A stretch of 64,000 nucleotides of DNA from a virus: the IMG/VR virus record IMGVR_UViG_3300035180_001563, positions 1 to 64,000 of that record. The stretch is one strand, 5' to 3'. Of this stretch, positions 2,424 to 35,378 are shown one piece after another. The notes below the pieces were generated by a model. It was not told where the DNA came from. It did no database searches and saw only the letters and a list, made by a program, of their open reading frames with translations. Each line of letters begins with the position of its first letter. Within the stretch, counting starts at the first letter, position 1. The translations under genes and the position numbers were made by a program.

Positions 2424-3392
2424 CTATTGTAAAAGCTCAACTGCACCTTTCGAAAGTCCTTCACTGATATAAACAGTAGTTACTCCTGCATTACGGAGTT
2501 GGTCACCATACTTCATTTTAACATACGCAGCCAAGAATTCAACTGTTGTTTCAGTGGGAAGCACTACGATCTTATGTTTTTCGGTGTTTAATACCAAATT
2601 GAATCTACCTCTTTGCGTTGTGGAATACCCAATTGTAATAGTATCGTTATCAGTAGCAATAACATTATCTTGTCGAACAAACACAGTGTCATCTAATTCA
2701 GCAGCGATTTCTGTTAGTAAATATCGAATCACAGGTGCTCGCACATCTCCAATTTCAATGTCAGTATGAATATATGAACGATGACCGTGAGCAATGTTTT
2801 GACAGCCATAAGAAGTTGAGTCTTTTAATCCATGCACATAATGGAACGGTCTCGTTTCGACGTTGAATGTAAGATGTTCATCGACAGTATTAACACACTG
2901 TGTTTCCACATTAATGAGAGGATATAGTTGAGAAAGTTGTCGTTGAACTAACTCCGTAAATGCTGCACCGATATAATCGAGATGGTGTGATGGATTCTTT
3001 GATTCTACTCGAGAAATGTATCGAACAGCATTTGAAGGTAAGTCTATTTTTAAACTAGGAGTTTCAATGTGAACCATCTCGTAATTGTCTGGTACATATT
3101 CATTAATAGCCGAATAACCCTCAATTACCCATAGTTTATGATCATAACCATTTATCAAAGGATTTGATAAATGTTGATCAATCACCTTCTTGATATCTTT
3201 CTTAATTGTTGAAAAATCCACCACTACTTTTTCAACATCATCTGGTTTTCCAGCTACGATAAAATTTGGATTGAAAGATCCACCACGAACACAACCTTTG
3301 TCATCAATATATGCATGATCAACCACCGAAATTTGATTCAAGAAAATCCTAGACGTTGTTGGTTCTTCTAACTTTGCAATATTTGTAAGCAC
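2424..3392 (-). CDS. queD-like: QueD/PTPS-like protein with two tandem domains
   Basis: 322 residues, GTG start with GGAG 7 nt upstream. The 6-pyruvoyl-tetrahydropterin synthase fold appears twice. Domain 1 (about 10-130) has DHAYIDDKGCVRGGSFNPNF, VVDFSTIKK and GYDHKLW. Domain 2 (about 170-320) has FHYVHGLKDSTSYGC followed by NIAHGHRSYIH, which matches the Cys plus HxH zinc and catalytic cluster of QueD. Known QueD makes 6-carboxytetrahydropterin for 7-deazaguanine synthesis. At about 120 residues, a normal QueD is one third of this length. Domain 1 appears to have lost the His cluster, so it may be structural. With QueE nearby it suggests 7-deazaguanine modification of DNA or tRNA. Confidence 0.75.
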   Translation of the reverse strand: MLTNIAKLEEPTTSRIFLNQISVVDHAYIDDKGCVRGGSFNPNFIVAGKPDDVEKVVVDFSTIKKDIKKVIDQHLSNPLINGYDHKLWVIEGYSAINEYVPDNYEMVHIETPSLKIDLPSNAVRYISRVESKNPSHHLDYIGAAFTELVQRQLSQLYPLINVETQCVNTVDEHLTFNVETRPFHYVHGLKDSTSYGCQNIAHGHRSYIHTDIEIGDVRAPVIRYLLTEIAAELDDTVFVRQDNVIATDNDTITIGYSTTQRGRFNLVLNTEKHKIVVLPTETTVEFLAAYVKMKYGDQLRNAGVTTVYISEGLSKGAVELLQ

Positions 3393-3418
3393 TTTTTATC
3401 TCCATTTTTATTTTATTA

Positions 3419-3424
3419 ATTATA
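3419..3424 (-). promoter_or_regulatory. -10 box upstream of the QueD-like gene
   Basis: On the minus strand this reads TATAAT within GTATAATTAAT, 27 nt before the GTG. The same GTATAATnAA context recurs before queE, gp44 and the 28.7-29.2 kb gene. The -35 is weak here. Confidence 0.4.
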
Positions 3425-3428
3425 CTGT

Positions 3429-4385
3429 TTAAACATAAATTTGACTAACTGATTGTTTTGATCTTATACGACGAAGTGTTTCTGCCACAACATTACTTAT
3501 AGATATTTGTCGTATCTTTTTATTTGTAAGTAACGGAATAGTATCAGTTACAACCAACTCGTCTAGCTGTGATTCATTGATAGTTTGATAAGCAGCATTC
3601 GAAAGTACGGGGTGAGTGACATATGCAACAACCTTAATTGCACCGTGATTTTTTAAAGCAGCCGCCGCTTTACATAAAGTTCCACCAGAATCAATAATGT
3701 CATCAATCATAACACAAACTTTCCCGTCAACATCACCAATGATATTCATAACTTCCGATTCACCAGCTTTTGGGCGACGTTTATCAACGATGGCTAGTTG
3801 TGTTTCTCCATTTAACTGACTTGCAATCTGTCTAGACCTAGCTACACCACCAACATCAGGAGAGACAACGATAATATTCTTCTGTTCAATCTCTTTTCTG
3901 TAGATTAGTTTAATATCTCTAATGAATTCAACTGAGGCAGACACATTCGTGAATGGGATTGTAAAAAAACCTTGTTGTTGAAGAGAGTGAATATCAACAG
4001 AAACGATATGGTCAATACCAGCAGACTGTATCATGTCAGCAATGAGTCTTGACGTTATTGGGCCACGACTAAATCCAGGTCGTCGATCTTGACGAGAATA
4101 GCTGTAATATGGAACAATAGCGATGATTCGTTTAGCTGCTGCTCGACGAAGTGCATCTGTTATTACTAACAATTCCATGAGATTATCATTAACAGGAGCA
4201 CAAGTAGATTGTATAACAAAAACAGTATTGCCCCTAACTGTTTCATCAATCTCAACTGATGTCTCACCGTCATTAAATTTTCCAACTCGCATCTTTCCCA
4301 GGACTAAACCCATTTTATCTGCAATCTTTGATGCTAACTCTATATTAGAATTTCCTGCAAACACTTTTACATTTACCAATGACAT
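3429..4385 (-). CDS. prs: Ribose-phosphate pyrophosphokinase
   Basis: 318 residues, the usual full length of bacterial PRPP synthetase. Visible motifs are NDNLMELLVITDALRRA (flexible ATP-binding region), PYYSYSRQDR, VSVDIHS (divalent metal/ATP), VSPDVGGVARSR, and the PRPP-binding loop VMIDDIIDSGGT. It converts ribose-5-phosphate and ATP to PRPP for nucleotide and NAD synthesis. In several large phages this gene accompanies a nicotinamide phosphoribosyltransferase and supports NAD regeneration; no such partner is in this window. AGGGTG serves as the ribosome site. Confidence 0.93.
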   Translation of the reverse strand: MSLVNVKVFAGNSNIELASKIADKMGLVLGKMRVGKFNDGETSVEIDETVRGNTVFVIQSTCAPVNDNLMELLVITDALRRAAAKRIIAIVPYYSYSRQDRRPGFSRGPITSRLIADMIQSAGIDHIVSVDIHSLQQQGFFTIPFTNVSASVEFIRDIKLIYRKEIEQKNIIVVSPDVGGVARSRQIASQLNGETQLAIVDKRRPKAGESEVMNIIGDVDGKVCVMIDDIIDSGGTLCKAAAALKNHGAIKVVAYVTHPVLSNAAYQTINESQLDELVVTDTIPLLTNKKIRQISISNVVAETLRRIRSKQSVSQIYV

Positions 4386-4418
4386 ATATCACCCTGTTTT
4401 TATTTAATTGTTGAAACT

Positions 4419-4535
4419 TTAGTAATCTTTATATTTTTGTAAATCGTTGGTTATGAAATCTAATCCGAGTTTGATTAATAGTGCTGAATGTATCCCTATA
4501 ATAAGTATAACTAATGCTCTTATCAATACACTCAC
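4419..4535 (-). CDS. Small single-pass membrane protein
   Basis: A 38-residue frame starting GTG at 4535, with AGGA 5 nt upstream, and ending TAA at 4419. Residues 4-24 (LIRALVILIIGIHSALLIKLG) form one hydrophobic helix. A polar basic tail (NDLQKYKDY) follows. It sits in the gap between queE and prs, in the same orientation and close to both. The ribosome site, membrane pattern and position argue for a real gene; the function is unknown. Confidence 0.6.
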   Translation of the reverse strand: MSVLIRALVILIIGIHSALLIKLGLDFITNDLQKYKDY

Positions 4536-4556
4536 AATGTTCCTATTAGTAAACAA

Positions 4557-5432
4557 TTACGTTCCTACTTTATTTCCCCACACATCTAAGTGTACACGAT
4601 GACAATATGTCAGACCTCGTTCAATACACATACGAGCCACGTCTGCTGCAATGGTGTCTTGCTGGGTGGTCACACAACTCATTGGCATGATAAACACATT
4701 ATTATCAGGTATAACACCTGCATTCCAATACTCCTGCATTGCACGCCCAACTTCTTCAAACTCTTCTTCGTTTGGTCCACACACAAACTTGAAGTACTGT
4801 TCTCCACGCTTAACTTGTTGTTGTGCAACAGCAACTTCAGGCTTGATTGCATCTTCCCACTTTTCACCACTGGCGCGAAGTTTGGGGGAATTTGAGAATG
4901 TGATTTTTCTTCCAGGTTTCCACCAACTATTTAAGGCGTTGACAAATTCACTACGAAGAGGAACAGAGCAATTTGTTTCAATAAGGATGTGTTGACAGTC
5001 TTCCATTAAAGGGTGGTTCAGCAAAACAATAATCTGTTTTTGGAACAAAAGTGGTTCACCACCAGTAATCGAAAATATAACTGGTTGATTTGTGGTTGGG
5101 TGTATCCAAGATTTGTGAGGAATCGTGTTTAACAATTCCTCAACCACTTTATTTTCATCTCCAGTAAACCACATATGTTCAAATTCTTTATTTACTGAAT
5201 ATTGACTATCACACCCACACTCAATTAGGGGAAGTTGTTGGAGTGAAGAATAATCTTTGGGGTTAAACGTTAGTGGTGCATAACCCTCTTTAGTTTTTTT
5301 ATTTGCTGGATTATTAAATCCAGCACAGGTGAAATTACATTTTGCAAAACGAAGGTATGTTGTCGGACGACCAGCATAAATAGCTTCGCCTTCTATAGAG
5401 GAAAAAATTTCGGACCAAGTGAATTTTGCCAT
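4557..5432 (-). CDS. queE-like: QueE-like radical SAM 7-carboxy-7-deazaguanine synthase
   Basis: 291 residues, AGGAG 6 nt before ATG. The N-terminus (EIFSSIEGEAIYAGRPTTYL) is the QueE opening. Cysteines at 32 and 36 (CNFTC) match the first two ligands of the 4Fe-4S CxxxC motif. The third is displaced by an insertion of about 35 residues to the CGCDSQYS block at 72-79, which matches the CDTxYs segment that normally follows directly. SITGGEPLL (about 121-129) is the SAM-binding GGE motif. It would make the deazaguanine ring precursor from QueD product. A second insertion-type QueE exists in E. coli, but there the extra loop is in the first gap. Confidence 0.82.
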   Translation of the reverse strand: MAKFTWSEIFSSIEGEAIYAGRPTTYLRFAKCNFTCAGFNNPANKKTKEGYAPLTFNPKDYSSLQQLPLIECGCDSQYSVNKEFEHMWFTGDENKVVEELLNTIPHKSWIHPTTNQPVIFSITGGEPLLFQKQIIVLLNHPLMEDCQHILIETNCSVPLRSEFVNALNSWWKPGRKITFSNSPKLRASGEKWEDAIKPEVAVAQQQVKRGEQYFKFVCGPNEEEFEEVGRAMQEYWNAGVIPDNNVFIMPMSCVTTQQDTIAADVARMCIERGLTYCHRVHLDVWGNKVGT

Positions 5433-5497: not shown

Positions 5498-7387
5498 ATG
5501 AATGAACAAATCAAATACAATACACTAATACAAAGATACCATAATTCTTATACAGGTAAAATTAAAACTCAACATCCAGAATTTTATGATTTTATTGTTA
5601 ATATGACTGCCTTTTTACCTCCTAGTGTTACCACAACACAACGGTTGTGGCATATTCATAACAATCTGTTTAGTGTTCCCCTATGTAAAACATGTAATAC
5701 TCCTGTGAATTGGGATATTGTTAAACAAGATTATAGAAAGTATTGTTGTAGAATGTGTAGTCCAAAAAAATCAGCAGAGGATCATGGAACACCTCCACAG
5801 TGTAATAACTCAAACTGTACTGAATTAGTACACTGGAACTCAAATACAAAAAAGTGGAATAATACATGTTCACATAAATGTAAAGAGGAATTATCGAGGA
5901 ATACTATGTCTTCTCTGGAGGAAATGAACAGTGTGTTATCTGCACTCCCATCTGATTATAATTATAGAAATTTTATAGCTGAACACCGAAGTGTTGTGAA
6001 TCGTATTCACTATGAAACAACACACCTACCAACTTCATATCAAATCAAAAAACGCATAGGTTGGTTGTTGGGAAGAACCAAAACAAAGCGTGAAATAATC
6101 AACACCGCCATAACATCACTCGATATTACTAACGAAGAAGATATACTGTCTTCGTTGAGGTATGCAAGAGCACTTATTTCCTCACAACTAAAAAAAGATT
6201 GCTTAATTTGTGGTGCACCAAGACAATATAATTCCAAAACCGGAAGATTTAGAAAATACTGTGGAGACGGGTGTGCCGAAAAACACAAAAAACAAATTTT
6301 ATTAAAACAATTTGTTAAAAAATTAACAGTTCTAACCCATAAAAAGTTTGGTCCTTCAAATAAAAATCATGACAATCGGTTGAACAGTTATGAATGGTTA
6401 TATGATCATCATTACAATAAAAAGTGGTCAAAACAACGAATATCCAAAGAGTTAAATGTCGACAAAGAGACTATAACAAACAGATTTAACTTGTTAGGAA
6501 TAACTTCAATACGACATTCTTCTAATAATGCTGAACAGGAAATTGTTGATTTTTTGAAATCAATATACAACGATCAGATTATACTTAATACAAGAACAAT
6601 AATTGGTCCTAAAGAACTTGACATATTTCTTCCAAACGAACAACTTGCTATAGAATATTGTGGTTTGTATTGGCACAGTGATGTCCACGACAGGATTACA
6701 CGATCGTATCATAAACAAAAATATCAATTATGCAAAAAACAAGGAATCCGGCTAATTACCATTTTTGAAGATGAATGGTTACACCATCCTGATATCGTTA
6801 AATCCAAACTGAAGAGATTGTTAAAAATAAACGATCAAAACACAGTATATGCGAGGAACACAAAAGTTATACAACTTAGTTCTACACAGTATAAACCCTT
6901 TTTAAACGAATTTCATATTCAGGGGAATAAAGATGGGTCTGTTGTATATGGGTTGACCACAGCAGATCAAATCGTTGCTGTTGTTGTGTTCAAACAACTT
7001 AAACCAAATACTTGGTCTATAGAAAGATATGCCACAAGCATTAATGTTCCAGGAGGTTTTACTAAATTGTTGTCTTATTTCCAAAAACATCACACATGGA
7101 ATCAAATAATAACATTTGCAGATTTAAGATGGAGTGAGGGTGATTTATACAAACTGGCCGGATTTACTATTGAAACAATTATTCCACCTGATTATTCCTA
7201 CATAAACCAAACAACAACGACAAGACATCATAAGTTTGGATATAGACATAAATTTTTATCAACTAAATTAGCAAAATATGATAAAAATGTAAGCGAGGCA
7301 GAAAACATGAAAAATAATAACATTTATAGGATATGGGACTGTGGGAAAATAAAATATGTAATCAACATTAACCAACTTTCTATTTAA
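5498..7387 (+). CDS. Vsr-like homing endonuclease with GNAT-like tail (copy 1)
   Basis: 629 residues, the longest family member and the only one on the plus strand. N-terminal zinc knuckles occur at about 66-90 (CKTCNTPVNW...YCCRMC), 107-128 (CNNSNC...CSHKC) and 240-265 (CLICGAP...YCGDGC). A helix-turn-helix follows (KKWSKQRISKELNVDKETI). The nuclease core has ELDIFLP, AIEYCGLYWHSD and GIRLITIFEDEW, a pattern like Vsr/EDxHD endonucleases. A C-terminal domain (HIQGNKDGS, ERYATSINVPGGF, TFADLRWSEG, PDYSY) has GNAT-like spacing. It ends in RIWDCGKIKY. It is inserted between queE and the PDF-like gene against the local transcription direction. Confidence 0.82.
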   Translation: MNEQIKYNTLIQRYHNSYTGKIKTQHPEFYDFIVNMTAFLPPSVTTTQRLWHIHNNLFSVPLCKTCNTPVNWDIVKQDYRKYCCRMCSPKKSAEDHGTPPQCNNSNCTELVHWNSNTKKWNNTCSHKCKEELSRNTMSSLEEMNSVLSALPSDYNYRNFIAEHRSVVNRIHYETTHLPTSYQIKKRIGWLLGRTKTKREIINTAITSLDITNEEDILSSLRYARALISSQLKKDCLICGAPRQYNSKTGRFRKYCGDGCAEKHKKQILLKQFVKKLTVLTHKKFGPSNKNHDNRLNSYEWLYDHHYNKKWSKQRISKELNVDKETITNRFNLLGITSIRHSSNNAEQEIVDFLKSIYNDQIILNTRTIIGPKELDIFLPNEQLAIEYCGLYWHSDVHDRITRSYHKQKYQLCKKQGIRLITIFEDEWLHHPDIVKSKLKRLLKINDQNTVYARNTKVIQLSSTQYKPFLNEFHIQGNKDGSVVYGLTTADQIVAVVVFKQLKPNTWSIERYATSINVPGGFTKLLSYFQKHHTWNQIITFADLRWSEGDLYKLAGFTIETIIPPDYSYINQTTTTRHHKFGYRHKFLSTKLAKYDKNVSEAENMKNNNIYRIWDCGKIKYVININQLSI

Positions 7388-8172: not shown

Positions 8173-8247
8173 TGGTGGAGGTACGGGGAATCAAACCCCG
8201 AATTTCTGCGTGCAAGGCAGATGTGTTCTCGTTAGCACTATACCCCC
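8173..8247 (-). tRNA. tRNA-Ala(UGC)
   Basis: Acceptor GGGGGTA/TACCTCC, anticodon stem TCTGC/GCAGA with loop CTTGCAC (anticodon TGC), T arm GGGG-TTTGATT-CCCC, discriminator A, CCA encoded. The HNH gene follows 3 nt away on its 5' side. Confidence 0.88.
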
Positions 8248-8250
8248 ATA

Positions 8251-8466
8251 TTACTTACCCCAAAAATCTTTTGATATAAGCAACACTTCTATTTCTTTTT
8301 TCCACCTTGAATGCATCATTTTGTGATGGTTTGAACATAGTGGAATTAAATTATCTAGATCATTATTTCCATGATTACCATCTAAATGATGGATTTCTAA
8401 TATTTTATCATGCCCACAGGCATAACAAAACAAGCGGATGTAACTTTCGATGTGGGCATGCTCCAC
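8251..8466 (-). CDS. HNH endonuclease inside the tRNA cluster
   Basis: 71 residues with GTG start at 8466. The motif order is FCYACGHD, then EIHHLDGNHGNNDLDNLIPLC, then SNHHKMMH: a complete zinc-stabilised HNH core and little else. The gene fits between tRNA-Ala and a tRNA with only a few bases on each side and has no clear ribosome site. Tiny HNH frames among phage tRNAs usually behave as mobile or homing elements; that reading is inference. Confidence 0.78.
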   Translation of the reverse strand: MEHAHIESYIRLFCYACGHDKILEIHHLDGNHGNNDLDNLIPLCSNHHKMMHSRWKKEIEVLLISKDFWGK

Positions 8467-8472
8467 TGAATC

Positions 8473-8555
8473 TGGTGCTGGAGGTGAGACTCGAACTCAC
8501 GGAGGTTTCCCGACGGCTTACAAAACCGTTGCAATTGCCACTATGCGACTCCAGC
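8473..8555 (-). tRNA. tRNA with anticodon UGU and long variable arm (copy A)
   Basis: Acceptor GCTGGAG/CTCCAGC, discriminator A, CCA encoded. Anticodon stem ACGGT/GCCGT with loop TTTGTAA gives anticodon TGT (Thr). The variable region is about 12 nt and can pair GG...CC, as in class II tRNAs (Leu, Ser, Tyr), which conflicts with Thr. The D stem is only about 3 bp. It is identical over 83 nt to the element at 8711-8793. The amino acid identity is therefore uncertain. Confidence 0.75.
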
Positions 8556-8605
8556 AAACATAAAGAAGTATATATAGTTTTTACTTCTAACACAACAAAA
8601 AATTT

Positions 8606-8709
8606 AATAGTATTGGATGGATTCGAACCATCGGCTTGGGCTTATAGAGCAGCGTATTGGTCCTTCACCATGAGCTCGTCCCCTCTCTACCACTGATGTA
8701 CAATACCAT
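8606..8709 (-). other. tRNA-like element with abnormal middle
   Basis: The ends look like a tRNA: GTATTG/CAATAC acceptor (extendable to about 10 bp outward, one G-T), D-loop-like AGTGGTAGAG, and a perfect T arm GATGG-TTCGAAT-CCATC. Between them no 5-7-5 anticodon arm can be drawn. Instead GAGC/GCTC and TGGT/ACCA pairs enclose a larger structure. There is no encoded CCA. It is either a decayed tRNA or a tRNA with an insertion similar in kind to the one at 8050-8153. Confidence 0.5.
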
Positions 8710-8710
8710 T

Positions 8711-8793
8711 TGGTGCTGGAGGTGAGACTCGAACTCACGGAGGTTTCCCGACGGCTTACAAAACCGTTGCAATTGCCACTATGCGACTCCAGC
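8711..8793 (-). tRNA. tRNA with anticodon UGU and long variable arm (copy B)
   Basis: An exact 83-nt duplicate of 8473-8555, with the same TTTGTAA loop, type-II-like variable arm and encoded CCA. The two copies flank the tRNA-like element at 8606-8709, consistent with a recent tandem duplication. Confidence 0.75.
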
Positions 8794-8875
8794 AAAACTA
8801 TGTAAAACATTATATCTGACTTTTATTCCTTAGACAACCGTTTGCACTACCGGACTGCACTACACTCTGAACTTT

Positions 8876-9115
8876 TCACCGTGTATTTGATGGCCACACG
8901 TCAACAGGTCTACTGTCACCATAAACTATCACATGTACAGTATATAAAAACATCAAATCTGATAGTATTTCTAGTTCAAACCCCTGTCTCGATGTTCGTT
9001 CCATTAAATACAAACTATCGAAGTATGTATAAAAGTGTTGTTTTCCCCACAAAGCGATTAGTCTATCGACTATATGAGGATATAATACTTCTATATCTGC
9101 AACCACACTCTTCAT
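8876..9115 (-). CDS. Hypothetical protein
   Basis: 79 residues, ATG at 9115 with GAGGA 7 nt upstream. It is mostly helical and amphipathic: VLYPHIVDRLIALWGKQ, FYTYFDSLYLME, then FELEILSDLMFLYTVHVIVY. No zinc or membrane signature is certain. The family is not recognised. The ribosome site and protein-like composition support a real gene between the two tRNA groups. Confidence 0.6.
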   Translation of the reverse strand: MKSVVADIEVLYPHIVDRLIALWGKQHFYTYFDSLYLMERTSRQGFELEILSDLMFLYTVHVIVYGDSRPVDVWPSNTR

Positions 9116-9178
9116 TTGTGTTCCTCAAAAGCTGTTATTTATGTGAAAAGTATACAACACATAAAACACAAAATCAAC

Positions 9179-9547
9179 TCATGCAAACAGAGAAATTGTG
9201 TGATCGACATTGTCTGGCTGTGTGTATGTATTTGCAACACTGGAAGAGGTAGTGTTTTGGGTATTTTCTACAATACTTGGTGTTGATACCAAATCAGACC
9301 CATTAACTTTGGTTGTTTTATTTGTTAAATTTTTTACTGCAGTTTCAAATATATGTTGTATAGGAGGAGATATCTGTCCTAAATTAACAACATACCCCTC
9401 TTGCTTAGCTGCAAAAACTTCTGCTTGTGCTTGTAATCTCATGATTTCAGCATCAACACCTTTGAGAGAATTTTGAATAGTTGTAGTCTCATAGTGGTTA
9501 TTTGCTATAAATTGATTAACAGCTTGTTTAAATTTAAGGTCAGTAAT
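9179..9547 (-). CDS. Small hypothetical protein with disrupted start region
   Basis: The coding frame KITDLKFKQAVNQF... continues upstream of the first in-frame ATG (9442) to about 9550 but has no standard start there. An ATG at 9576, overlapping the stop of the previous gene (ATGA), reads only MKIIFA then stops. Removing 23 nt between two ATT triplets would join ATG AAA to ATT ACT GAC and give MKITDLKFKQ. The protein is helical at the N-terminus with a Ser/Thr/Asn-rich C-terminus. A decayed start, a sequence error or translational bypassing are all possible. Confidence 0.55.
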   Translation of the reverse strand: MTDLKFKQAVNQFIANNHYETTTIQNSLKGVDAEIMRLQAQAEVFAAKQEGYVVNLGQISPPIQHIFETAVKNLTNKTTKVNGSDLVSTPSIVENTQNTTSSSVANTYTQPDNVDHTISLFA

Positions 9548-9572
9548 CTTTACGGTTAGGCAAAAATAATTT

Positions 9573-9812
9573 TCATTGCATCATCTTATATGCTTCTTCT
9601 CCACTAATAACCTTTTTAGTTACAGTCGCATTAATTTCTTTACCAGTCATGTACTTACGTGCTTCAAGCGAAGAGTCAAACGGTCCAATAAGTGTTGGTT
9701 CCACAGTATCCATATACACGTAGAACTTATCTTTTTTAATTCCCCTAGCATCAATAACATTGGTTCGTTTTAAGTTATAAACAGTTTCGGATATGATGTC
9801 AGCTAGTTTCAT
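9573..9812 (-). CDS. Small protein with MKLxDIxSE leader
   Basis: 79 residues, AGGA before ATG and a CATAAATA late-type box 25 nt upstream. The N-terminus MKLADIISE matches the leader shared with 11079-11486 and 13495-13687. It ends at a possible I-x-E site for a gp21-type prohead protease. The rest has a beta-rich pattern with YVYMDTVEPTLIGPFDSSLEARKYM. It may be an internal head protein injected with DNA; this is inference from the leader and the late promoter. Confidence 0.65.
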   Translation of the reverse strand: MKLADIISETVYNLKRTNVIDARGIKKDKFYVYMDTVEPTLIGPFDSSLEARKYMTGKEINATVTKKVISGEEAYKMMQ

Positions 9813-9836
9813 TTTAGTTTTTCCTGTATTTGTACA

Positions 9837-9844
9837 TATTTATG
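9837..9844 (-). promoter_or_regulatory. Late-type promoter box CATAAATA
   Basis: Seven of eight bases match the T4 late -10 TATAAATA on the minus strand, 25 nt before the ATG at 9812. Confidence 0.5.
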
Positions 9845-9847
9845 CTC

Positions 9848-9922
9848 TGGGGTGCCCAACCGGGTTTGAACCGGTGATGACGGAATCACAATCCGTAGTG
9901 TTACCACTACACTATGGGCACC
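9848..9922 (-). tRNA. tRNA-His(GUG)
   Basis: Acceptor GTGCCCA/TGGGCAC with the diagnostic extra G-1 opposite C73, encoded CCA, anticodon stem ACGGA/TCCGT and loop TTGTGAT (GTG). T arm CCGG-TTCAAAC-CCGG. A clean histidine tRNA. Confidence 0.93.
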
Positions 9923-9931
9923 ATTAACACA

Positions 9932-10978
9932 TCACAATAAGGTCGTCATTAATTTTTTCCAAACTTTAGATGTTTTATTTGAGTACGATTTCAAATTCAA
10001 ATAGTGTATATAACGATTAAAAATAGACATTTCATATGATCTCACCAATGCACGTTCTATAGAGTATTGGTCAGTTGGATCAGCAATAAACCACGAAGAT
10101 GCCCATGGAACTTCATTGCTTACAACAACAGGAACACCAACGTTAACCAAATCCGCAGCTACAATATTAAAAGTCTCACTAAATGATACTTGCATACCAA
10201 CATCCATAGTTGCACACAGTTTAAGAAAATCATCTCTAACCATCCAGGTATGCTCTATCAATTCATGTCCATTTTGAGATTGTCTATCAAACAATCGACG
10301 GAGGTTGTGAAGGATTGGTTCACCTTTCATTTCTAATCGATTTGCATTAATGTGAAATTTGAGTTTTTTTCCTAACATATTTGCAACATGAATTGCAGCT
10401 AAGGCTTGTTGTAAGTGATTTTTTAAAGGTCGGATAGCCCCAAAACATCCAATGTTAATATACTCTGATTTTGTATTGATGATATGTGTTAGTGTATTGT
10501 CAATTGGGTAATAATTAGGCATGTATATGAATTTTGACTCTAACTTCTGTGGAAGATGTAACTTACACAAACTAGACATCATTCTTGGTGAATTTACACC
10601 AACAAATACATTAGCATAATCTAAGTAATCGGTTATCCAAGCATAAGCAATACCTTCTTGTGCCATGAATGGTACTTCGCTGTGAATTCTAACTACCCAC
10701 TTTACTGTCGGATGAAGTTTTTGGAGGATTTCAAATTTATCCGGAACCACCCACAAGGCTTCAATTATAACAACTTTTGGTTTATGTTGAGTCACGATCC
10801 GATCTATACAGTTATTATCAACAGCAACTTCAACTTCAGAAGAAATCCCCATCCCATTTAACATATCATTCACATATGACGCCGAATTCAGCAAACCTGT
10901 AGATAATCCTTTTGGTTCATCAAAGTGTTTGACACCATAACTTTCTTTTCTTTTTAAAATAAACAGCACGTCAGACAT
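9932..10978 (-). CDS. GT-B fold glycosyltransferase
   Basis: About 348 residues. The ATG at 10978 is chosen because AAGGAG lies 6 nt before it. The N-terminal half has a Rossmann-like start (MSDVLFILKRK) and VVIIEALWV. The C-terminal half has NIGCFGAIRPLKNHLQALA-type nucleotide-sugar binding sequence, KFHINANR and SFSETFNIVAADLVNVGVPVV, which is the family GT4 E-x7-E-like donor site. It transfers a sugar to an unknown acceptor: phage DNA, a virion protein or host surface. A GATAAATA late box lies 23 nt upstream, favouring a virion or modification role. Confidence 0.82.
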   Translation of the reverse strand: MSDVLFILKRKESYGVKHFDEPKGLSTGLLNSASYVNDMLNGMGISSEVEVAVDNNCIDRIVTQHKPKVVIIEALWVVPDKFEILQKLHPTVKWVVRIHSEVPFMAQEGIAYAWITDYLDYANVFVGVNSPRMMSSLCKLHLPQKLESKFIYMPNYYPIDNTLTHIINTKSEYINIGCFGAIRPLKNHLQQALAAIHVANMLGKKLKFHINANRLEMKGEPILHNLRRLFDRQSQNGHELIEHTWMVRDDFLKLCATMDVGMQVSFSETFNIVAADLVNVGVPVVVSNEVPWASSWFIADPTDQYSIERALVRSYEMSIFNRYIHYLNLKSYSNKTSKVWKKLMTTLL

Positions 10979-11000
10979 TTTAGTCTCCTTGGTAAACACT

Positions 11001-11008
11001 TATTTATC
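11001..11008 (-). promoter_or_regulatory. Late-type promoter box GATAAATA
   Basis: Minus-strand match to TATAAATA (7/8), 23 nt before the glycosyltransferase ATG at 10978. Confidence 0.5.
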
Positions 11009-11078
11009 AAAGATATGGAGGTGCTTTAAAATATATTTTTGGTAGATATCCCCAAAATGGGATACTAAAAATATAACA

Positions 11079-11486
11079 CTACACTTGTGCAGATAGTTGT
11101 GTATTTCTTGAATTGTCTAATGCTTTATTTCTTTGAATATTGCGTTTTGTTTTATTTTGATTTGGAGTTAACCACTGCAAATTCTTAACACTGTTGTTTC
11201 TGGTATTGTGGTCAATATGATCCACCTCCATATCTGCAGCTTTAGGTGAACCCAGAAAGGCGAAGGCGACAATCCGACTAACGCGAACATGTTTACTTAC
11301 ATTATTTGCATGTAAATGCACCCGCATATATGGATTTTTTTTATCATTTCCAAAATGTTCTTCTTGAGCTAAGAGTTTCTTTGTTTTTGCCGATCGAACT
11401 TTTCCAGATCTTGATACTTCATATCCTGGCCAACCAACAACGGGCTTCCAGGTACTTTCTGCTTCAAATAGATCAATCAATTTCAT
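11079..11486 (-). CDS. NUMOD4-HNH homing endonuclease with MKLIDLFE leader
   Basis: 135 residues. WKPVVGWPGYEVSRSGKVRS (12-31) is the NUMOD4 DNA-binding motif. The HNH core follows: MEVDHIDHNTRNNSVKNLQW, with LTPNQN after it (HNH_3 type). The first ten residues MKLIDLFEAE are outside the endonuclease and match the leader of two neighbouring small proteins, including an L-x-E site. A perfect TATAAATA box lies 25 nt before the ATG and AGGA is the ribosome site. Late expression plus the leader suggest that it may be packaged in the head. Confidence 0.85.
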   Translation of the reverse strand: MKLIDLFEAESTWKPVVGWPGYEVSRSGKVRSAKTKKLLAQEEHFGNDKKNPYMRVHLHANNVSKHVRVSRIVAFAFLGSPKAADMEVDHIDHNTRNNSVKNLQWLTPNQNKTKRNIQRNKALDNSRNTQLSAQV

Positions 11487-11510
11487 TTTGTACGTCCTGT
11501 TAACATATTG

Positions 11511-11518
11511 TATTTATA
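11511..11518 (-). promoter_or_regulatory. Late promoter TATAAATA
   Basis: A perfect minus-strand match, 25 nt before the ATG of the NUMOD4-HNH gene. Confidence 0.65.
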
Positions 11519-11836
11519 TGGATGAACAACATAACAACAATTTAAGAATACTGATAACTTGATGTGCATATTCTTTACCATACACGTCAATCAATGTATA
11601 TTCAATTTTATCAATTGTTGTTTTTATGTTCCATCCATGATCCGTGGATACTTTATAAAATTCCAACCAATCCACTACACAATCATGCTCTTTAATTTGA
11701 TCTACAATAATGTCAAGAGGAATACCAAGAGCCTCTGAGTGTTTGAACACATCTAACCCGTTTATTACTCGTTTTCCGTCCGTAGTTATACCAACTTGTC
11801 TTAATCCGTAGTGTTTTTTCCATTTGCGTTTAGCAT
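11514..11836 (-). CDS. Hypothetical protein reached by a possible -1 frameshift
   Basis: A strong ribosome site (AGGAGG, 8-nt spacer) precedes ATG 11836, but that frame ends after 11 codons. Codons 6-8 are GGA AAA AAC, containing the slippery heptamer A AAA AAC. A -1 slip there enters a long frame (KKHYGLRQVGITTDGKRV..., then DIIVDQIKEHDCVVDWLEFY...) that runs to 11514 and gives about 107 residues in all. Without a slip, the only formal start in the long frame is GTG 11750. One missing A in an original A7 run, or a sequencing error, would give the same picture. No known family. Confidence 0.55.
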
Positions 11837-11864
11837 CTCCCTACCCTCCTTGTCGTTAAAAGTT

Positions 11865-11938
11865 TGGAGCTTGATGAGAGAATCGAACTCTCACAGCATT
11901 CATACCAAGAATGTAGTCTACCATTAACCTAATCAAGC
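11865..11938 (-). tRNA. tRNA-Thr(GGU)
   Basis: Acceptor GCTTGAT/ATCAAGC, discriminator T, CCA encoded. Anticodon stem CATTC/GAATG, loop TTGGTAT (GGT). T arm GAGAG-TTCGATT-CTCTC. Confidence 0.87.
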
Positions 11939-11946
11939 ATATCGTT

Positions 11947-12023
11947 TGGAGGTGATGGCCGGAATCGAACCGGCATGATCCTTGTTATGAGCAAGGCGGT
12001 ATTACCTTTTCACCCACATCACC
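11947..12023 (-). tRNA. tRNA with CAU anticodon (Met or Ile2)
   Basis: Acceptor GGTGATG/CATCACC, CCA encoded, anticodon stem CCTTG/CAAGG, loop CTCATAA. The elongator Met and lysidine-modified Ile forms cannot be separated by eye. It does not look like an initiator, because the first acceptor pair is G-C. Confidence 0.9.
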
Positions 12024-12025
12024 AA

Positions 12026-12099
12026 TGGCAGACCACCAGGGAATTGAACCCCGTCCAACGGCTTTGGAGGCCGCGGTGCTTCCGTAACACTTGTGGTCT
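12026..12099 (-). tRNA. tRNA-Trp(CCA)
   Basis: Acceptor AGACCAC/GTGGTCT, discriminator G as expected for Trp, CCA encoded. Anticodon stem GCGGC/GCCGT, loop CTCCAAA. Confidence 0.9.
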
Positions 12100-12131
12100 A
12101 TTAAGTTAAAGCACAATATTTTATTATCATT

Positions 12132-12207
12132 TGGGGGGGCATACTCAGATTTGAACTGAGTCCAACGGAATCACAATCCGCGATGCTGCCATTACACCAT
12201 ACGCCCC
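12132..12207 (-). tRNA. Second tRNA-His-like gene (GUG)
   Basis: Acceptor GGGGCGT/ATGCCCC, discriminator C, CCA encoded, loop TTGTGAT with the same GCGGA/TCCGT anticodon stem style as tRNA-His at 9848. A G-1 is not clearly separable because four G face a run of seven C at the 3' end. Confidence 0.78.
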
Positions 12208-12216
12208 ATTGAAACA

Positions 12217-12299
12217 TTGATTGTAGCGGAATCGAACCAACTAGCCTGTGACACAGACCTACTACCAACTCAGTTGCTTGCAAGTCAACTTTACAATCA
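12217..12299 (-). tRNA. Atypical tRNA, possibly Asp(GUC)
   Basis: Acceptor TGATTGT/ACAATCA is perfect, with no CCA encoded. A loop GTGTCAC between weak stems suggests a GUC anticodon. Between the acceptor and a D-loop-like AGTTGGTAG there is an extra hairpin (GTTG...CAAC), and the variable/T-stem region is about 4 nt short. It may be a rearranged or decaying tRNA, and the identity is tentative. Confidence 0.45.
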
Positions 12300-12302
12300 G
12301 TG

Positions 12303-12376
12303 TGGAGCCATCTGTCAGAATCGAACTGACGTATCAACGGTACGAAGGTTGTGTAATACCACTATACGAAGACGGC
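12303..12376 (-). tRNA. tRNA-Thr(CGU)
   Basis: Acceptor GCCGTCT/AGATGGC, discriminator T, CCA encoded. D arm GTAT...ATTAC, T arm GTCAG-TTCGATT-CTGAC. Loop TTCGTAC on CAACC/CGTTG (one C-C mismatch) gives anticodon CGT. The body resembles phage Gly tRNAs, so identity from the anticodon alone carries some doubt. Confidence 0.75.
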
Positions 12377-12386
12377 ATATTAAAAT

Positions 12387-12461
12387 TGGTGCTCCAGCGA
12401 GGATTCGAACCCCGTTCCACTTCCTTACAAGAGAAGGCTTCACCGTCAAAGTTTCTGAAGC
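12387..12461 (-). tRNA. tRNA-Thr(UGU)
   Basis: Acceptor GCTTCAG/CTGGAGC, discriminator A, CCA encoded. Anticodon stem CTTCT/GGAAG with loop CTTGTAA. A conventional class I tRNA, and so the likely working UGU reader beside the interrupted copy at 8050. Confidence 0.85.
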
Positions 12462-12470
12462 TTATGTTTT

Positions 12471-12507
12471 TGGTAGGTAGACGATCTCAGAATCGAAAGA
12501 CTACCTA
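12471..12507 (-). other. tRNA minihelix remnant
   Basis: TAGGTAG and CTACCTA form a perfect 7-bp acceptor followed by CCA. Between them lie only about 20 nt containing TTCGATT, the T-loop sequence. The D and anticodon arms are absent. This is what remains when a tRNA loses its middle; it could also still act as a minimal CCA-bearing helix. Confidence 0.5.
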
Positions 12508-12523
12508 TAATGATTCTATTAGG

Positions 12524-12597
12524 TAGGGCCCCGCGGAATCGAACCGCGACCATCTGCTTTTCAGACAAGCATGCTCACCAGTTTACACCAGAGCCCT
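12524..12597 (-). tRNA. tRNA-Gln(CUG)
   Basis: Acceptor AGGGCTC/GGGCCCT, discriminator A; CCA is not encoded (CCT follows). Anticodon stem TGCTT/AAGCA is perfect and its loop GTCTGAA gives CTG. T arm CGCGG-TTCGATT-CCGCG. Confidence 0.8.
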
Positions 12598-12668
12598 ATA
12601 AATTAATTCGCTCGTCATTTAGGTTGATCAAGACCTCTTAATGAAAGAGTAGCTTACTCTCCAGTCGT

Positions 12669-12739
12669 ATTCGGGGTGGGAATCGAACCTCACTCCTGCC
12701 CCACATATAGAGGCCGTGCAACCATTACACTAAACCGAA
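12669..12739 (-). tRNA. tRNA-Ile(UAU) with A33
   Basis: D stem GTGT/GCAC and anticodon stem GCCTC/GGGGC place the loop as TATATGT, giving anticodon TAT but A instead of T at position 33. The acceptor pairs at TTCGG/CCGAA and the T stem has a bulge. No CCA. The loop or stem may be decayed, so isoleucine identity is by anticodon only. Confidence 0.6.
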
Positions 12740-12759
12740 AGTTGTCTTGCTTGCGAATT

Positions 12760-12834
12760 TGGCACCGTGTATGGGAATTGAACCCATCTCATCAGCTTGA
12801 AGGGCTGAGGATCTCACCAGAAATCCAACACGGT
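12760..12834 (-). tRNA. tRNA-Glu(UUC) with C33
   Basis: Acceptor ACCGTGT/ACACGGT, discriminator G as in Glu tRNAs, CCA encoded. Anticodon stem TCAGC/GCTGA, loop CCTTCAA: anticodon TTC but C at position 33 where nearly all tRNAs have U. Otherwise regular. Confidence 0.82.
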
Positions 12835-12907
12835 ATTAATTTTTTGTATTGATTATTGCCAAGGATGTTGCTAACTACACCCTTGTGACTTCTACCAGTA
12901 CACTGTT

Positions 12908-12982
12908 TGGTGGAGGCCCAGGAAATCGAATCCTTGTAGACACAAACATTGCAAGTGTTTGCCATAACCCATTACTGCCCCC
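12908..12982 (-). tRNA. Second tRNA-Ala(UGC), shortened D arm
   Basis: Acceptor GGGGGC/GCCTCC (seventh pair mismatched), discriminator A, CCA encoded. Anticodon stem AAACA/TGTTT, loop CTTGCAA (TGC). Only about 15 nt separate acceptor and anticodon stem, about four fewer than normal, so the D arm is reduced, and the variable region is longer. Confidence 0.7.
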
Positions 12983-12988
12983 ATTGGT

Positions 12989-13067
12989 TGGTCCGAATGG
13001 TCAGCATCGAACTGACATGAATATCTCCGCTCCGGACGGAGTGGCTTACCAATTAGCCCACACTCGG
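12989..13067 (-). tRNA. tRNA-Pro(CGG) with C33
   Basis: Acceptor CCGAGTG/CATTCGG with C1 as in proline tRNAs, discriminator A, CCA encoded. D arm GGCT-AATTGGTA-AGCC. Anticodon stem CTCCG/CGGAG, loop TCCGGAG: anticodon CGG preceded by C33. Confidence 0.75.
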
Positions 13068-13083
13068 ATTGTAAAGTTGTTTG

Positions 13084-13156
13084 TCGGTCACACAAGCTTC
13101 GAACTTGCACCTTCCTCGCCCCAAACGAGGTGGACTTCCTATTATCCCAATGACCG
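13084..13156 (-). tRNA. tRNA-Pro(UGG)
   Basis: Acceptor CGGTCAT/GTGACCG, discriminator A followed by CAA rather than CCA. Anticodon stem CCTCG/CGAGG, loop TTTGGGG (TGG, normal T33). D stem GGA/TCC. The outer bases extend the acceptor helix by a few pairs. Confidence 0.82.
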
Positions 13157-13190
13157 ACAAACAACTCTAATGTTTATATCGAATTTGTTT

Positions 13191-13267
13191 GTCTAGCGGG
13201 GAGACTTGAACTCCCATGATAACCGCACTCCAGATGCGGTGGCTTACCAAATTAGCCAACCGCTAGA
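13191..13267 (-). tRNA. tRNA with UGG anticodon and C33 (Pro-like)
   Basis: Acceptor TCTAGCG/CGCTAGA sits inside a perfect helix that continues outward for about eight more pairs (TTTGTTTG/CAAACAAA). Anticodon stem CCGCA/TGCGG, loop TCTGGAG: TGG with C33. D arm close to that of the tRNA at 12989. It is the first tRNA in the direction of transcription. Confidence 0.72.
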
Positions 13268-13317
13268 CAAACAAATCCAAATTTTTAATGAACAGGTTAA
13301 AACATTTACGGCAGACA

Positions 13318-26172: not shown

Positions 26173-27777
26173 CTACAGGGTTAACACAAACCGTTTTAAT
26201 CCACAGTCCCATATCCTGGGTATATTCTTACAATTTTCAGATTCACTCAAAGTTGGATTATATTTGGTTCCTAAAATTGATGGAAGATGTTTGTGTCTAA
26301 AATTGAATTTATGAATTCTTCTATTACCAACAACATAACGATAGTCAGGCTTAATTGTTTTATCACACACGAAACCTGTTTTTTCATACAAAGTACCATT
26401 ACTCCAACGTCGGTCAGCAAAAGTAACGATTTGGGTATACAATTCTTGTTTTTTTATATATTTTAATATTTTACCCAACCCCCCAACCACAAGAGTACTT
26501 GTAGCATACCGGTTTAACTCTAATCGACGATTACCCAACTGCTTAAATCCTGCACAAGCAACCATAACACCATCAGCAAACAAACCTATATTCAGTGAAC
26601 TTTTCCCATCCCCCATCAAATGATACTTTTCAAAAAATGGTTTTTTATCTGTAGTTACTTGTCGTATGTTGCATGCTTTTGCATAAACTTTATTACCACT
26701 AATGTTATTGAGAACATATGATATTGTATTGAATATAATATCTTTTCTGAATATCCACTCATCTTCGAATATTGTTATCAATCGAATACCAAGTTTATTA
26801 CACATGTCTAATTTATTTAAGTGATAGTTTGGTGTAATACGCTCAACACTATTACTATGCCAATATAACCCACAGTACTCAAAAGCAACTTTTTTTGAAG
26901 GTATGTACACGTCCAGTTCATATGGATATATTACGGATCGTACATTACTTTGTGCATCTGGACATATATTATAAACATACTCAAACAATTCACGTTCACC
27001 AACAGATACACTAAACCTCTTAGGTTGTATATTGTGAAATTTTAACCACCGAAGAACAGTATTCTGATCAACCTCTAAAGTTAATGCAATCTTTGATGCA
27101 GGCTGTTGATCTAATATGTGTGCTTGATATAAATAATTATAATCCTTTAATAAATCCAACACATCTGAACCGTAGTGTTTTTGCGTTTGAGAATCTACCT
27201 GATATAACTCATTCCAAAACTGTTTGTTATTATGTTTGAACACGTCTGTTTTAAAATAATTATCTTGTCCATATCGTGCAATTAAAATATTTTTTATCTT
27301 TTCAGGATTTGCTCTTAACCAAGTAACGTCTCCATATCGTTCTATATTTGTATGTCGAATCTGTTCCTTGACTTTCTCTGTTTTTCGCACATTGTCAACT
27401 CCATACAACTCCATACAAGTCTTCTGTATCTTAGTTATATTATTTTTACTTCCATATTTCAACACTTTAGTTTTCTGTATTTTTTGTTGAACGTTAACAC
27501 TTTTTCTAGAATTATCCACCCCATATTTTTCAATACAAGCTTTTTTGTATTTGTCTTTCCATGTGGGATCTTGGTTTCTACATTTAGCAGAGCAATATGT
27601 ACGATACTTTCCCAGAGAATTATCCCAGTTTACGGGATTTGAGTTACAAATTAAACACATTTGAATTGTATGTATTTGATTTATTATGTGCCATTTTCGT
27701 TGAGCTTTTTTAGCATCAATAGGCAAAAAATTTGTAAGTGTAATCAATTCTTCTTTAGGTATATTAAGATCAATCAT
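26173..27777 (-). CDS. Vsr-like homing endonuclease with GNAT-like tail (copy 2)
   Basis: 534 residues. A CLICNS...YCSAKC zinc finger (about 39-63) is followed by four YG repeats (KYGVDN, KYGSKN, LYGVDN, RYG...), then a helix-turn-helix (QPASKIALTLEVDQNTVLRW), then ELDVYIP, AFEYCGLYWHSN and GIRLITIFEDEW. The GNAT-like tail has YHLMGDGKSS, NRYATSTLVVGGLGK, TFADRRWSNG and PDYRYV. It ends RIWDCGLKRF. Its ATG overlaps the last codons of the DnaE-like gene, so it rides on that gene's translation. Confidence 0.82.
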   Translation of the reverse strand: MIDLNIPKEELITLTNFLPIDAKKAQRKWHIINQIHTIQMCLICNSNPVNWDNSLGKYRTYCSAKCRNQDPTWKDKYKKACIEKYGVDNSRKSVNVQQKIQKTKVLKYGSKNNITKIQKTCMELYGVDNVRKTEKVKEQIRHTNIERYGDVTWLRANPEKIKNILIARYGQDNYFKTDVFKHNNKQFWNELYQVDSQTQKHYGSDVLDLLKDYNYLYQAHILDQQPASKIALTLEVDQNTVLRWLKFHNIQPKRFSVSVGERELFEYVYNICPDAQSNVRSVIYPYELDVYIPSKKVAFEYCGLYWHSNSVERITPNYHLNKLDMCNKLGIRLITIFEDEWIFRKDIIFNTISYVLNNISGNKVYAKACNIRQVTTDKKPFFEKYHLMGDGKSSLNIGLFADGVMVACAGFKQLGNRRLELNRYATSTLVVGGLGKILKYIKKQELYTQIVTFADRRWSNGTLYEKTGFVCDKTIKPDYRYVVGNRRIHKFNFRHKHLPSILGTKYNPTLSESENCKNIPRIWDCGLKRFVLTL

Positions 27778-28333
27778 GAATAAAATCTTCTATGGGTAAT
27801 TGAAATTTCACACAATCAATATCATGAATTCCAATCAGATATAGTATATATGAAGAAACCGAACTTCCACGACCTACCCCCCACACCACATTATTTTGTT
27901 CAAATACATCCATAACGTAAATCATTAATCGTAAAACAGGAAATAAATTTTTTGTTTTGAATAATTTCAATTCCATTCTAGTTCGATCAATTCTTGCCTC
28001 ACTGTCAAGTGCAGTCATTCCATGAATTTCAGATTCCAAAGCCTCAACTATAAATTCCGATACGCTGATTTTGTGATATGATTTTTCAATCATCCAATCA
28101 AATTGAAGCGGTTTAATATTGGTTTTAACCTCAATTTTCTGATCGCTAGTTAACACTAAGTCGTTATATTTTTCCAAGTCACGAGTAAGTTCTGTTGTAA
28201 AAAGTGACTTTACAGGAACCCCCTGTACAATAAGTTTTTCAATTTCTAATGGAGATACAGAGATATCTCCATCGTACCACAACACTCTATCATTTAATTT
28301 TGTATTAAATAAATGTTGATCTGTAATTTCCAT
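27770..28333 (-). CDS. DnaE-like fragment protein
   Basis: 187 residues. The C-terminal segment VVWGVGRGSSVSSYILYLIG followed by HDIDCVKFQLPIEDF matches the GRGSAAGSLVAYxLGIT block of bacterial DNA polymerase III alpha palm domains. The catalytic aspartates lie outside this piece. T4-like marine phages carry such a short DnaE-like protein alongside their own family B polymerase; its role is unknown. The chain ends where the relatives end, so it is not cut by the endonuclease that follows. Confidence 0.7.
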   Translation of the reverse strand: MEITDQHLFNTKLNDRVLWYDGDISVSPLEIEKLIVQGVPVKSLFTTELTRDLEKYNDLVLTSDQKIEVKTNIKPLQFDWMIEKSYHKISVSEFIVEALESEIHGMTALDSEARIDRTRMELKLFKTKNLFPVLRLMIYVMDVFEQNNVVWGVGRGSSVSSYILYLIGIHDIDCVKFQLPIEDFIHD

Positions 28334-31929: not shown

Positions 31930-33444
31930 TTACCTTATTATTTCCACATTTTCTGAATATTCAACAAGTAACTTTTTATACTTATAATGTGCACCTTTAT
32001 AATATTTTATTCTTTTTGTTAAGTGATCTTTTGAATATTTTAAGTTACCACAAATGTCTATTATATCTACACTGTCTTTATCTTTACCTTTACGAAGACC
32101 ACGTCCTATAGTTTGTATTGTTCTGACAAATGACTTACCTCCATCAACATAACATAAATTGAAAATTCTGTCGATACTCAACCCAACGCCAGCAATTTGT
32201 ACTGTTGCAATAACAATAAGGTCATCATTTGTTTCAAAAAGATCATATACACGTTGTCTAACCTCTTGTTTATCCTTTCCATACAGAAACGTTGAATTGG
32301 GTATTAGTTTTGCAAGTCTTTTACCAACAATCACACTACTGACTAAACAAAGAACATTACCTTTTTGAGCAGATCCCTTTTCGACAATAAAGCTAGCAAT
32401 CCAACTCCAGCGAAGTTTATCGCTGTTCAAAAATGCTATTTCATTATCGTATGTAATTTTTTCATCTGGGTCTTTAGTAGTTTCATTCTGCTCCATCAAC
32501 TGTTCAATTCTGCGTTGGTCATCTAATTGAACAACAGTTATGTTTGGGATAGATAACCACCCACTACTTATCAATGTAGACGCAGCTATCGTATATCTCA
32601 CTGGGCCTAAACTTAAGCGAACCATCAAAGAATCGACTTTATGGTCAGGTAATGTTCCTGTGAGACCGAAACGATGTACAATATGTTTTCCATATTCGTT
32701 AATCAGACCTCCTATTACACTCGCTTTAGCTCCATGGCATTCATCAATGACAATCACATTAAATTTACTTATTAGCTGAGGATAGTTTTGGAGAGACTGC
32801 CACGTCGAAATTATATGTATATGGTCAAGATCTTTATTATCACCACTATATTCCCCAACATCCAATCCAAGCAATTTGAATTCTCTGATTGTTTGACTAA
32901 CAAGGGAAATGGAGGGAACAATAGTGATTGATTTCAGTCCATGTTTTCCGTAATTATCAACTAGAGCAGCATTTATACTCGTTTTACCTGCTCCAGTTCC
33001 TGCAATTATAATACCAAAACCGTGTTCAAATAATTGATTCAATGAGTCGACTTGATATGGTCGCACTTCCCACGGTTCATCTGTTTTCGGATTTATAATA
33101 TGAGAAAAGTATTCAGAATCAATCTGATCAACTTCGGTGAAATCGTTTAATCTCTTATCATTGATTTCAATTTTGTATCCAAATGATTTAATTTTTGGAA
33201 CTAATTCGTCCAATAAGTTGACATATGTATGTCCATCATCAGTAAAGAATTTTTTCTTCCCATCCCAAACTCCCAACTTGTATTTTGGCTGGAAAAAATA
33301 TCCTTTCACATGAAGCGCATATTCTTCAACGAAAAAATCTGAATGATCTTTGTGTAAACCGGATATTATACAATGAACTTCGTCTTGTAACGTAATTCTT
33401 ACTTTTTTAACAAACGTTTGTTCAACGAGACGCACAATATCCAT
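31930..33444 (-). CDS. uvsW: UvsW recombination helicase
   Basis: About 504 residues (T4 UvsW 502). The start is taken at ATG 33444, whose A is shared with the upstream stop (TGATG) and which follows GGTGG. Superfamily 2 motifs: GTGAGKTS (Walker A), VIDECHGAK (motif II), FGLTGT (motif III), QTIGRGLRKGKD (motif VI). UvsW unwinds R-loops and branched DNA, shutting off origin replication and driving recombination-dependent replication. The upstream neighbours are an endonuclease and uvsY. Confidence 0.92.
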   Translation of the reverse strand: MDIVRLVEQTFVKKVRITLQDEVHCIISGLHKDHSDFFVEEYALHVKGYFFQPKYKLGVWDGKKKFFTDDGHTYVNLLDELVPKIKSFGYKIEINDKRLNDFTEVDQIDSEYFSHIINPKTDEPWEVRPYQVDSLNQLFEHGFGIIIAGTGAGKTSINAALVDNYGKHGLKSITIVPSISLVSQTIREFKLLGLDVGEYSGDNKDLDHIHIISTWQSLQNYPQLISKFNVIVIDECHGAKASVIGGLINEYGKHIVHRFGLTGTLPDHKVDSLMVRLSLGPVRYTIAASTLISSGWLSIPNITVVQLDDQRRIEQLMEQNETTKDPDEKITYDNEIAFLNSDKLRWSWIASFIVEKGSAQKGNVLCLVSSVIVGKRLAKLIPNSTFLYGKDKQEVRQRVYDLFETNDDLIVIATVQIAGVGLSIDRIFNLCYVDGGKSFVRTIQTIGRGLRKGKDKDSVDIIDICGNLKYSKDHLTKRIKYYKGAHYKYKKLLVEYSENVEIIR

Positions 33445-34913: not shown

Positions 34914-35378
34914 TTAATTAATAAAATAATCAGATGCCTCTGAAGTTACTAATCTCGTTATATTATTTAGCGAATATCCTCTTGCTTTAAAAGCGTCAAC
35001 AACTGAGACATATTGATCATACATATCTTTCAATTCCAAGTACAATTCGTACACACTTAAATATGATGGCTCGTGGTTGATGTATTGTTCTTTGTCTTTA
35101 GATTGAAGTTCTCTTGAATAATTTTCTGTATAATCTTTCCACAATTTACCTCTTGTTCGGTGAACCTGAGCTTCCACATAGTCAAGAGCAGATTTTAATT
35201 CTGCCCTACGAGAATCATAAAACACCAACCACCCAGGTTGTTCGTTGTTAGCTACAACAAGTTGCTTTCCTTTGAGGCGAAGATGATCCTCAAATCCAGC
35301 TAGATCGTTCTCGTAAACTTCTAATACTTTAACAACATTTGTGATGTTTTCATGTAGTAATTCTAGAGGTCTATTCAT
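34914..35378 (-). CDS. uvsY: UvsY-like recombination mediator
   Basis: 154 residues (T4 UvsY 137), largely helical. The end VVDAFKARGYSLNNITRL aligns with ALDAIKSRGFAIKHIQDM of T4 UvsY. RRAELKSALDYVEAQVHRTR and RGKLWKDY are conserved in cyanophage forms. UvsY loads UvsX onto gp32-covered DNA. In T4 uvsY and uvsW are adjacent; here the endonuclease gene has been inserted between them. Confidence 0.85.
   Translation of the reverse strand: MNRPLELLHENITNVVKVLEVYENDLAGFEDHLRLKGKQLVVANNEQPGWLVFYDSRRAELKSALDYVEAQVHRTRGKLWKDYTENYSRELQSKDKEQYINHEPSYLSVYELYLELKDMYDQYVSVVDAFKARGYSLNNITRLVTSEASDYFIN

Follow-up and report, generated by a model that had tools for sequence, protein, structure and literature searches.

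Hef-like homing endonucleases carrying a Mom-like GNAT tail form a multicopy family in a phage genome

Our analysis of a 64,000 nt stretch of viral DNA (positions 1 to 64,000 of IMG/VR record IMGVR_UViG_3300035180_001563; hereafter the window) revealed a family of genes that lie within or between core phage genes, at positions where related phages show no interruption. Judged from sequence and structural models, the encoded proteins are built, in order, of variable DNA-binding modules, a helix-turn-helix, a predicted EDxHD/Vsr-like nuclease of the I-Bth0305I kind and a GNAT domain homologous to the Mom family. We interpret them as mobile Hef-like homing endonucleases whose C-terminal tail probably binds a cofactor and modifies DNA, although for this reading as a whole we consider the balance to be even.

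Results

A preliminary description of the window, made from its letters alone, had proposed a six-member family joining a Vsr-like nuclease to a GNAT-like second half. All six ORFs are present, and their alignment covers nuclease and tail at 31–41 % identity to copy 1, with 50 invariant columns that include the motifs of that description. The count of six holds for the window, while the source record (122,193 bases, a phage of ~122 kb) carries ten tail-bearing copies, four of them outside the window at record positions ~73984–76218, 82602–84227, 114607–116334 and 119799–121667. Two boundaries were also revised, as copy 5 spans 57450–59042 and copy 6 extends past the window to 64434. Every window copy matched PHROG 3339, ‘homing endonuclease’, far beyond chance (E 1e-96 to 1e-115). 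Pairwise identity among the tails is only 30–52 %, which marks the copies as old rather than recent duplications. Their G+C content (0.31–0.33) is poorer than that of the window (0.36), and no near DNA match to window positions 55000–64000 was present in the phage collection searched.

Copy 1 (5498–7387, 629 aa) is the only one of the six on the plus strand. It adjoins queE, and its nuclease domain (approximately 6494–6838) is followed by the Mom-like GNAT tail (6839–7384). The same region holds QueD-like (PTPS), PRPP synthetase and QueE-like genes (2424–5432), which are possible parts of a 7-deazaguanine pathway, so that guanines in the DNA or tRNA of this phage may be modified. Fifteen predicted tRNA genes, including five tRNA-Thr, three tRNA-Pro and two tRNA-His, lie at 8173–13268, some of them perhaps degenerate.

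The sites of copies 2, 3, 4 and 5 were compared with the related, collinear jumbo phages XacN1 and RAS14. All four sites were empty in both phages, with gene order uninterrupted, and no tail-bearing gene was found anywhere in either genome. Copy 2 (26173–27777, minus strand, 534 aa; tail 26176–26694, with a match to PHROG 1384 ‘Mom-like’ at E 2.4e-4) lies directly past a DNA-polymerase-like gene (27770–28333). Copy 3 (33444–34913, minus strand, 489 aa; tail 33447–34001) sits exactly between the uvsY-like (34914–35378) and helicase (31930–33447) genes, which overlap by 20 nt in XacN1. Copy 4 (37296–38993, minus strand, 565 aa) lies directly past uvsX/recA (38993–40084); its nuclease domain occupies residues ~270–384 (37842–38186) and its tail residues 385–565 (37299–37841). 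Copy 6, truncated at the end of the window (62995–63999, minus strand; tail 62998–63525), lies between the tail tube (62306–62914) and tail sheath genes and in full encodes 479 aa (record positions 62995–64434, equivalent to L171:995–2434).

Copy 5 (57450–59042, minus strand, 530 aa; tail 57453–57992) is flanked by the two halves of a terminase large subunit gene (56300–59859) that is fractured by a split intein whose N part is very short and whose C part is long. The N half (58960–59859, minus strand) ends in 38 aa of intein (58963–59076; CCSINTIIEIQD...), and the C half (56300–57511, minus strand) begins with 128 aa of intein (57128–57511) ending VLSHN/C. The intein signs are a C...SINTIIEIQD start and a ...TNGVLSHN/C end, with a Pfam intein match below the cut-off, and the terminase exteins, once joined, show no alignment gap where they meet. 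Homing endonucleases of the I-Bth0305I/EDxHD kind and ‘fractured genes’ were reportedly described by Dassa in 2009 and Taylor in 2011, and copy 5 likewise has half of an intein-split gene on either side.

Phage PA5oct was found to carry five tail-bearing genes. One lies past uvsX, at the junction of copy 4, and another between tail sheath and tail tube, at the junction of copy 6; the remaining three lie inside a split DNA polymerase gene (NC_071039 217500–222500, L270), past the major head protein and next to an HNH gene. We considered the same-site copies at uvsX and the tail tube as orthologues of those in the window and rejected this, as they are not each other's best matches; these two junctions were therefore perhaps reached independently.

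The hef gene of phage U5 (AY262133), which lies between nrdA and nrdB, has 99.3 % DNA identity with a T-even member of the family found at that same position. Hef of U5, like the Hef-like free-standing homing endonucleases of PHROG 3339, shares its architecture with the window copies from end to end, but the GNAT core that the window copies retain is degenerate in U5 Hef, with D replaced by N and a seven-residue deletion. The suggestion in the preliminary description that these are homing endonucleases thus agrees with both the empty sites in XacN1 and RAS14 and membership of the Hef family, and we consider it very likely that the copies are mobile homing elements.

The fusion of a nuclease to Mom was described in jumbo phages in 2021 (Iyer/Aravind) as restriction-modification-like (PMC7824862), in a text in which the word ‘homing’ does not appear. 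Those Mom-REase fusions are very probably the same proteins as the tail-bearing genes found here: the ‘five momylating enzymes’ given for PA5oct agree with the count of five tail-bearing genes in that phage. On that account the protein would be a one-chain weapon, the tail modifying phage DNA and the nuclease destroying unmodified DNA of the host or of rivals. The fusion itself and the PA5oct count fit this, and a homing endonuclease is reported to act in phage competition (PMC11620839). We nevertheless consider the weapon reading unlikely. The genes interrupt core genes or the junctions between them, the sites are empty in relatives and some junctions are common to distant phages, a gene order that favours homing; up to ten divergent copies occur per genome; NUMOD and group-I-intron-endonuclease-like modules are present; PADLOC calls are mainly ‘HEase’; and U5 Hef has been described as cutting nrdB (PMC2988022).

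The N-termini are variable, as had been proposed. DUF7487 was matched in copies 2 and 4, and weakly in copy 5, and DUF723 in copy 3, whereas copy 1 gave only weak matches of zinc-binding type; together with helix-turn-helix matches, DUF7487 and DUF723 place DNA-binding modules upstream of the nuclease. Searched against PDB sequences, a profile built from 70 relatives returned a single match, the catalytic domain of I-Bth0305I (3R3P, E 7.8e-10), which is the only part of that enzyme in the solved chain. The AlphaFold model of the helix-turn-helix, nuclease and tail of copy 4 (pLDDT 94.3, pTM 0.85) matched both 3R3P and DNA-bound Vsr (1CW0) by fold comparison. Conserved nuclease residues in copy 4 are E312, D314, E325, H332, H342, K345 and 361–363; those of active-site type are present in all six window copies and are kept across 112 relatives at 99 % (H332), 93 % (D314) and 89 % (E325). 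Profile and fold therefore uphold the Vsr-like assignment and indicate homology with the EDxHD homing endonucleases.

EDxHD-like nucleases with repeat-type N-termini and no Mom-like tail were also observed, at 40071–40991 in the window and at record positions 69385–70506 and 113078–114052. The first has an N-terminus of the CapR/DUF723/DUF4379 kind and lies between the ssb and uvsX genes, which are adjacent in XacN1. In the passages of PMC12350094 consulted, CapR-like/EDxHD intron endonucleases have the N-terminal modules and nuclease type seen in this gene and in the copy at record positions 73984–76218; they are described there without a Mom-like tail, whereas the latter copy carries one.

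The tail was examined by fold comparison because a direct sequence search of the PDB gave GNAT matches only, all of them weak. The model of the copy 4 tail, built on 112 relatives (mean pLDDT 95.4), found Mom, a DNA-modifying enzyme of phage Mu, as its top match in the PDB (8BV8, E 5e-8), followed by many GNAT acetyltransferases; among predicted viral structures it matched homing endonucleases and a Salmonella phage Mom. A profile of the tail aligned with a profile of 12 Mom proteins over the whole domain (168 columns, E 5.5e-17). The preliminary description had called the second half GNAT-like and possibly Mom-like, and had named an unrelated fold in such a comparison as the adverse outcome; the comparison instead yielded Mom and GNATs, and the Mom-like character extends along the entire tail domain. 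With the curated Pfam cut-off for Mom (PF25680, 27.1), none of the window copies gave a match; a relative of the HNH type, L106, scored 35.1 and passed, and the copy at record positions 73984–76218 scored 25.6, below it. Taken together, the fold and profile matches identify the tail as a Mom-like GNAT domain, and we regard family identity and tail fold as almost certain.

Mom residues H58, R111, D149 and Y159 correspond to tail positions H26, R63, D95 and Y104 (H410, R447, D479 and Y488 of copy 4). Among 255 nearly complete divergent tails, R63 was conserved at 99.6 %, Y104 at 99 %, G72 at 98 % and D95 at 95 %; H26, Q28 and G29 were near-invariant, a figure inflated by the search patterns, which contained those residues. 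Mom Ser124, which is Ser/Thr in the 12 Moms aligned and is essential (the inactive mutant S124A is the crystal form 8BV8), has no conserved Ser/Thr counterpart in the tails, and Mom Tyr59 and Asn163 are likewise not conserved. The serine of GGxSK was tried as the equivalent of Ser124 and dropped, as the tails have S, G, D or T there and alignments place the position differently. The tails also differ from Mom of phage Mu in an extra C-terminal PxYxY...R(I/V)WDCG segment and in their fusion to a nuclease, seen in almost every complete protein examined. The tail therefore combines the Mom fold with part of the Mom pocket, but is not classed as Mom by function. The complete acyl-CoA pyrophosphate loop motif R/QxxGxG/A is lacking in most Vsr-type tails, including those of the window (6 of 198 tails outside the nuclease-swapped group have it), but is present, as RIPGIA, in 13 of the 15 tails of that group.

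Some 220 non-redundant tails were sorted by the state of their domains. Nuclease and tail pocket were both intact in 178 complete proteins, and a further 13 combined an intact nuclease with N, S or H in place of D95. The Vsr-like domain was degenerate or replaced in fifteen tail-bearing proteins, and all 15 retained H, R, D and Y, indicating that the tail persists through exchanges of the cutting module. In eleven of these an HNH motif was recognized by pattern and by PHROG 559, with no Pfam HNH match for any of them. L254 (L254:1262–3052) is a homing endonuclease with GIY-YIG, NUMOD3 and NUMOD1 (Pfam E 6e-6 and 1e-13) in which the Vsr-like domain is degenerate and the Mom-like tail intact; the copy at record positions 73984–76218 and L083 combine a CapR/DUF4379-type N-terminus with an additional EDxHD-like nuclease; and in L088 there is just the degenerate Vsr-like domain. 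The reverse case is seen in L044:4809–5945 (minus strand), L091:425–1603 and L111:485–1615, where the EDxHD nuclease is intact and the GNAT core is lost, leaving a WDCG-like end; from its sequence, this extreme C-terminus may have a separate role.

No clear stand-alone tail was found among the complete ORFs of viral contigs, the short ones being mostly contig ends; the nearest to one is the 272 aa protein L262 from Pedobacter yulinensis. A cellular origin was also considered and not adopted; one scan of genome contigs, with a narrow pattern, found two relatives. L262 and L261, from a Paludibacteraceae MAG, are rare tail relatives in bacterial assemblies; L261 has a pair of adjacent copies in which N takes the place of D95, and may represent a prophage or a contaminating phage contig.

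Discussion

The main alternative to a modifying activity is that a Mom-derived domain has lost catalysis and serves only to recognize or grip DNA at the homing site; a tail that only recognizes sequence had already been raised in the preliminary description. NUMODs serve such DNA recognition in other homing endonucleases. The absence of Mom Ser124, Tyr59 and Asn163 points in this direction, as do the degenerate core of U5 Hef, the experimentally named member, and the three proteins that keep a WDCG-like end without a GNAT core. The nuclease-swapped proteins can be read similarly, since the degenerate Vsr domain and the tail stay together as a binding unit would. However, the near-invariance of H, R, D and Y at positions conserved in Mom, taken with the complete GNAT pyrophosphate-loop motif in the swapped forms, exceeds what a DNA grip alone would be expected to maintain. 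We consider a recognition-only tail a real possibility, roughly half as probable as its negation. That the tail is vestigial baggage from a gene fusion, with no present function, would fit its degeneration or loss in some lineages, but is highly improbable given that 255 divergent tails share pocket residues and that the tail has survived the exchange of the nuclease for at least three others.

Our preferred reading remains that of a homing endonuclease with a modifying tail. By analogy with homing endonucleases in general, the protein would bind the uninvaded allele over a long site, its nuclease would break that site and repair would copy the gene in. In the least certain step, the Mom-like tail would bind an acyl-CoA-like cofactor and modify bases at or near the recognized site; we see the arguments for and against cofactor binding and DNA modification as evenly poised. 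The modification might safeguard the phage's own DNA, a purpose that we infer and advance tentatively. It would not be needed for immunity at the terminase site at least, as the insertion itself already protects there. The decay of the tail in some lineages, U5 Hef included, indicates that homing does not require it and that its part is an accessory one. In its most specific form, which we offer as a conjecture with less than even support, the family would be a class of homing endonuclease with its own DNA-base acyltransferase, using a chemistry other than that of Mom (there being no Ser124) and marking the resident target, with the nuclease cutting unmarked alleles.

The nuclease–Mom fusion was already known, and some Acinetobacter phage records already carry the name ‘putative nuclease/acetyltransferase protein’. 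Our study adds that the two names are linked, that U5 Hef is a member and that the nuclease has been swapped. In the open-licence literature, outside which most subscription papers lie, we found no text linking Hef-like homing endonucleases with Mom, and the open-licence literature searched held no description of the tail fused to HNH, GIY-YIG/NUMOD or CapR-EDxHD nucleases.

In summary, what are apparently the same proteins have been given two names and two functions, as Hef-like homing endonucleases by annotators and as momylating restriction-modification enzymes in the 2021 survey. Their union in one family, with a tail kept through the nuclease swaps, makes DNA modification by a homing endonuclease directly testable. 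If such an endonuclease does modify and protect its own genome, homing immunity would not arise solely from disruption of the target site. The family would then represent a modular, selfish restriction-modification unit, in which a constant modification half is combined with an exchanged nuclease half (Vsr-like, HNH, GIY-YIG/NUMOD or CapR-EDxHD).
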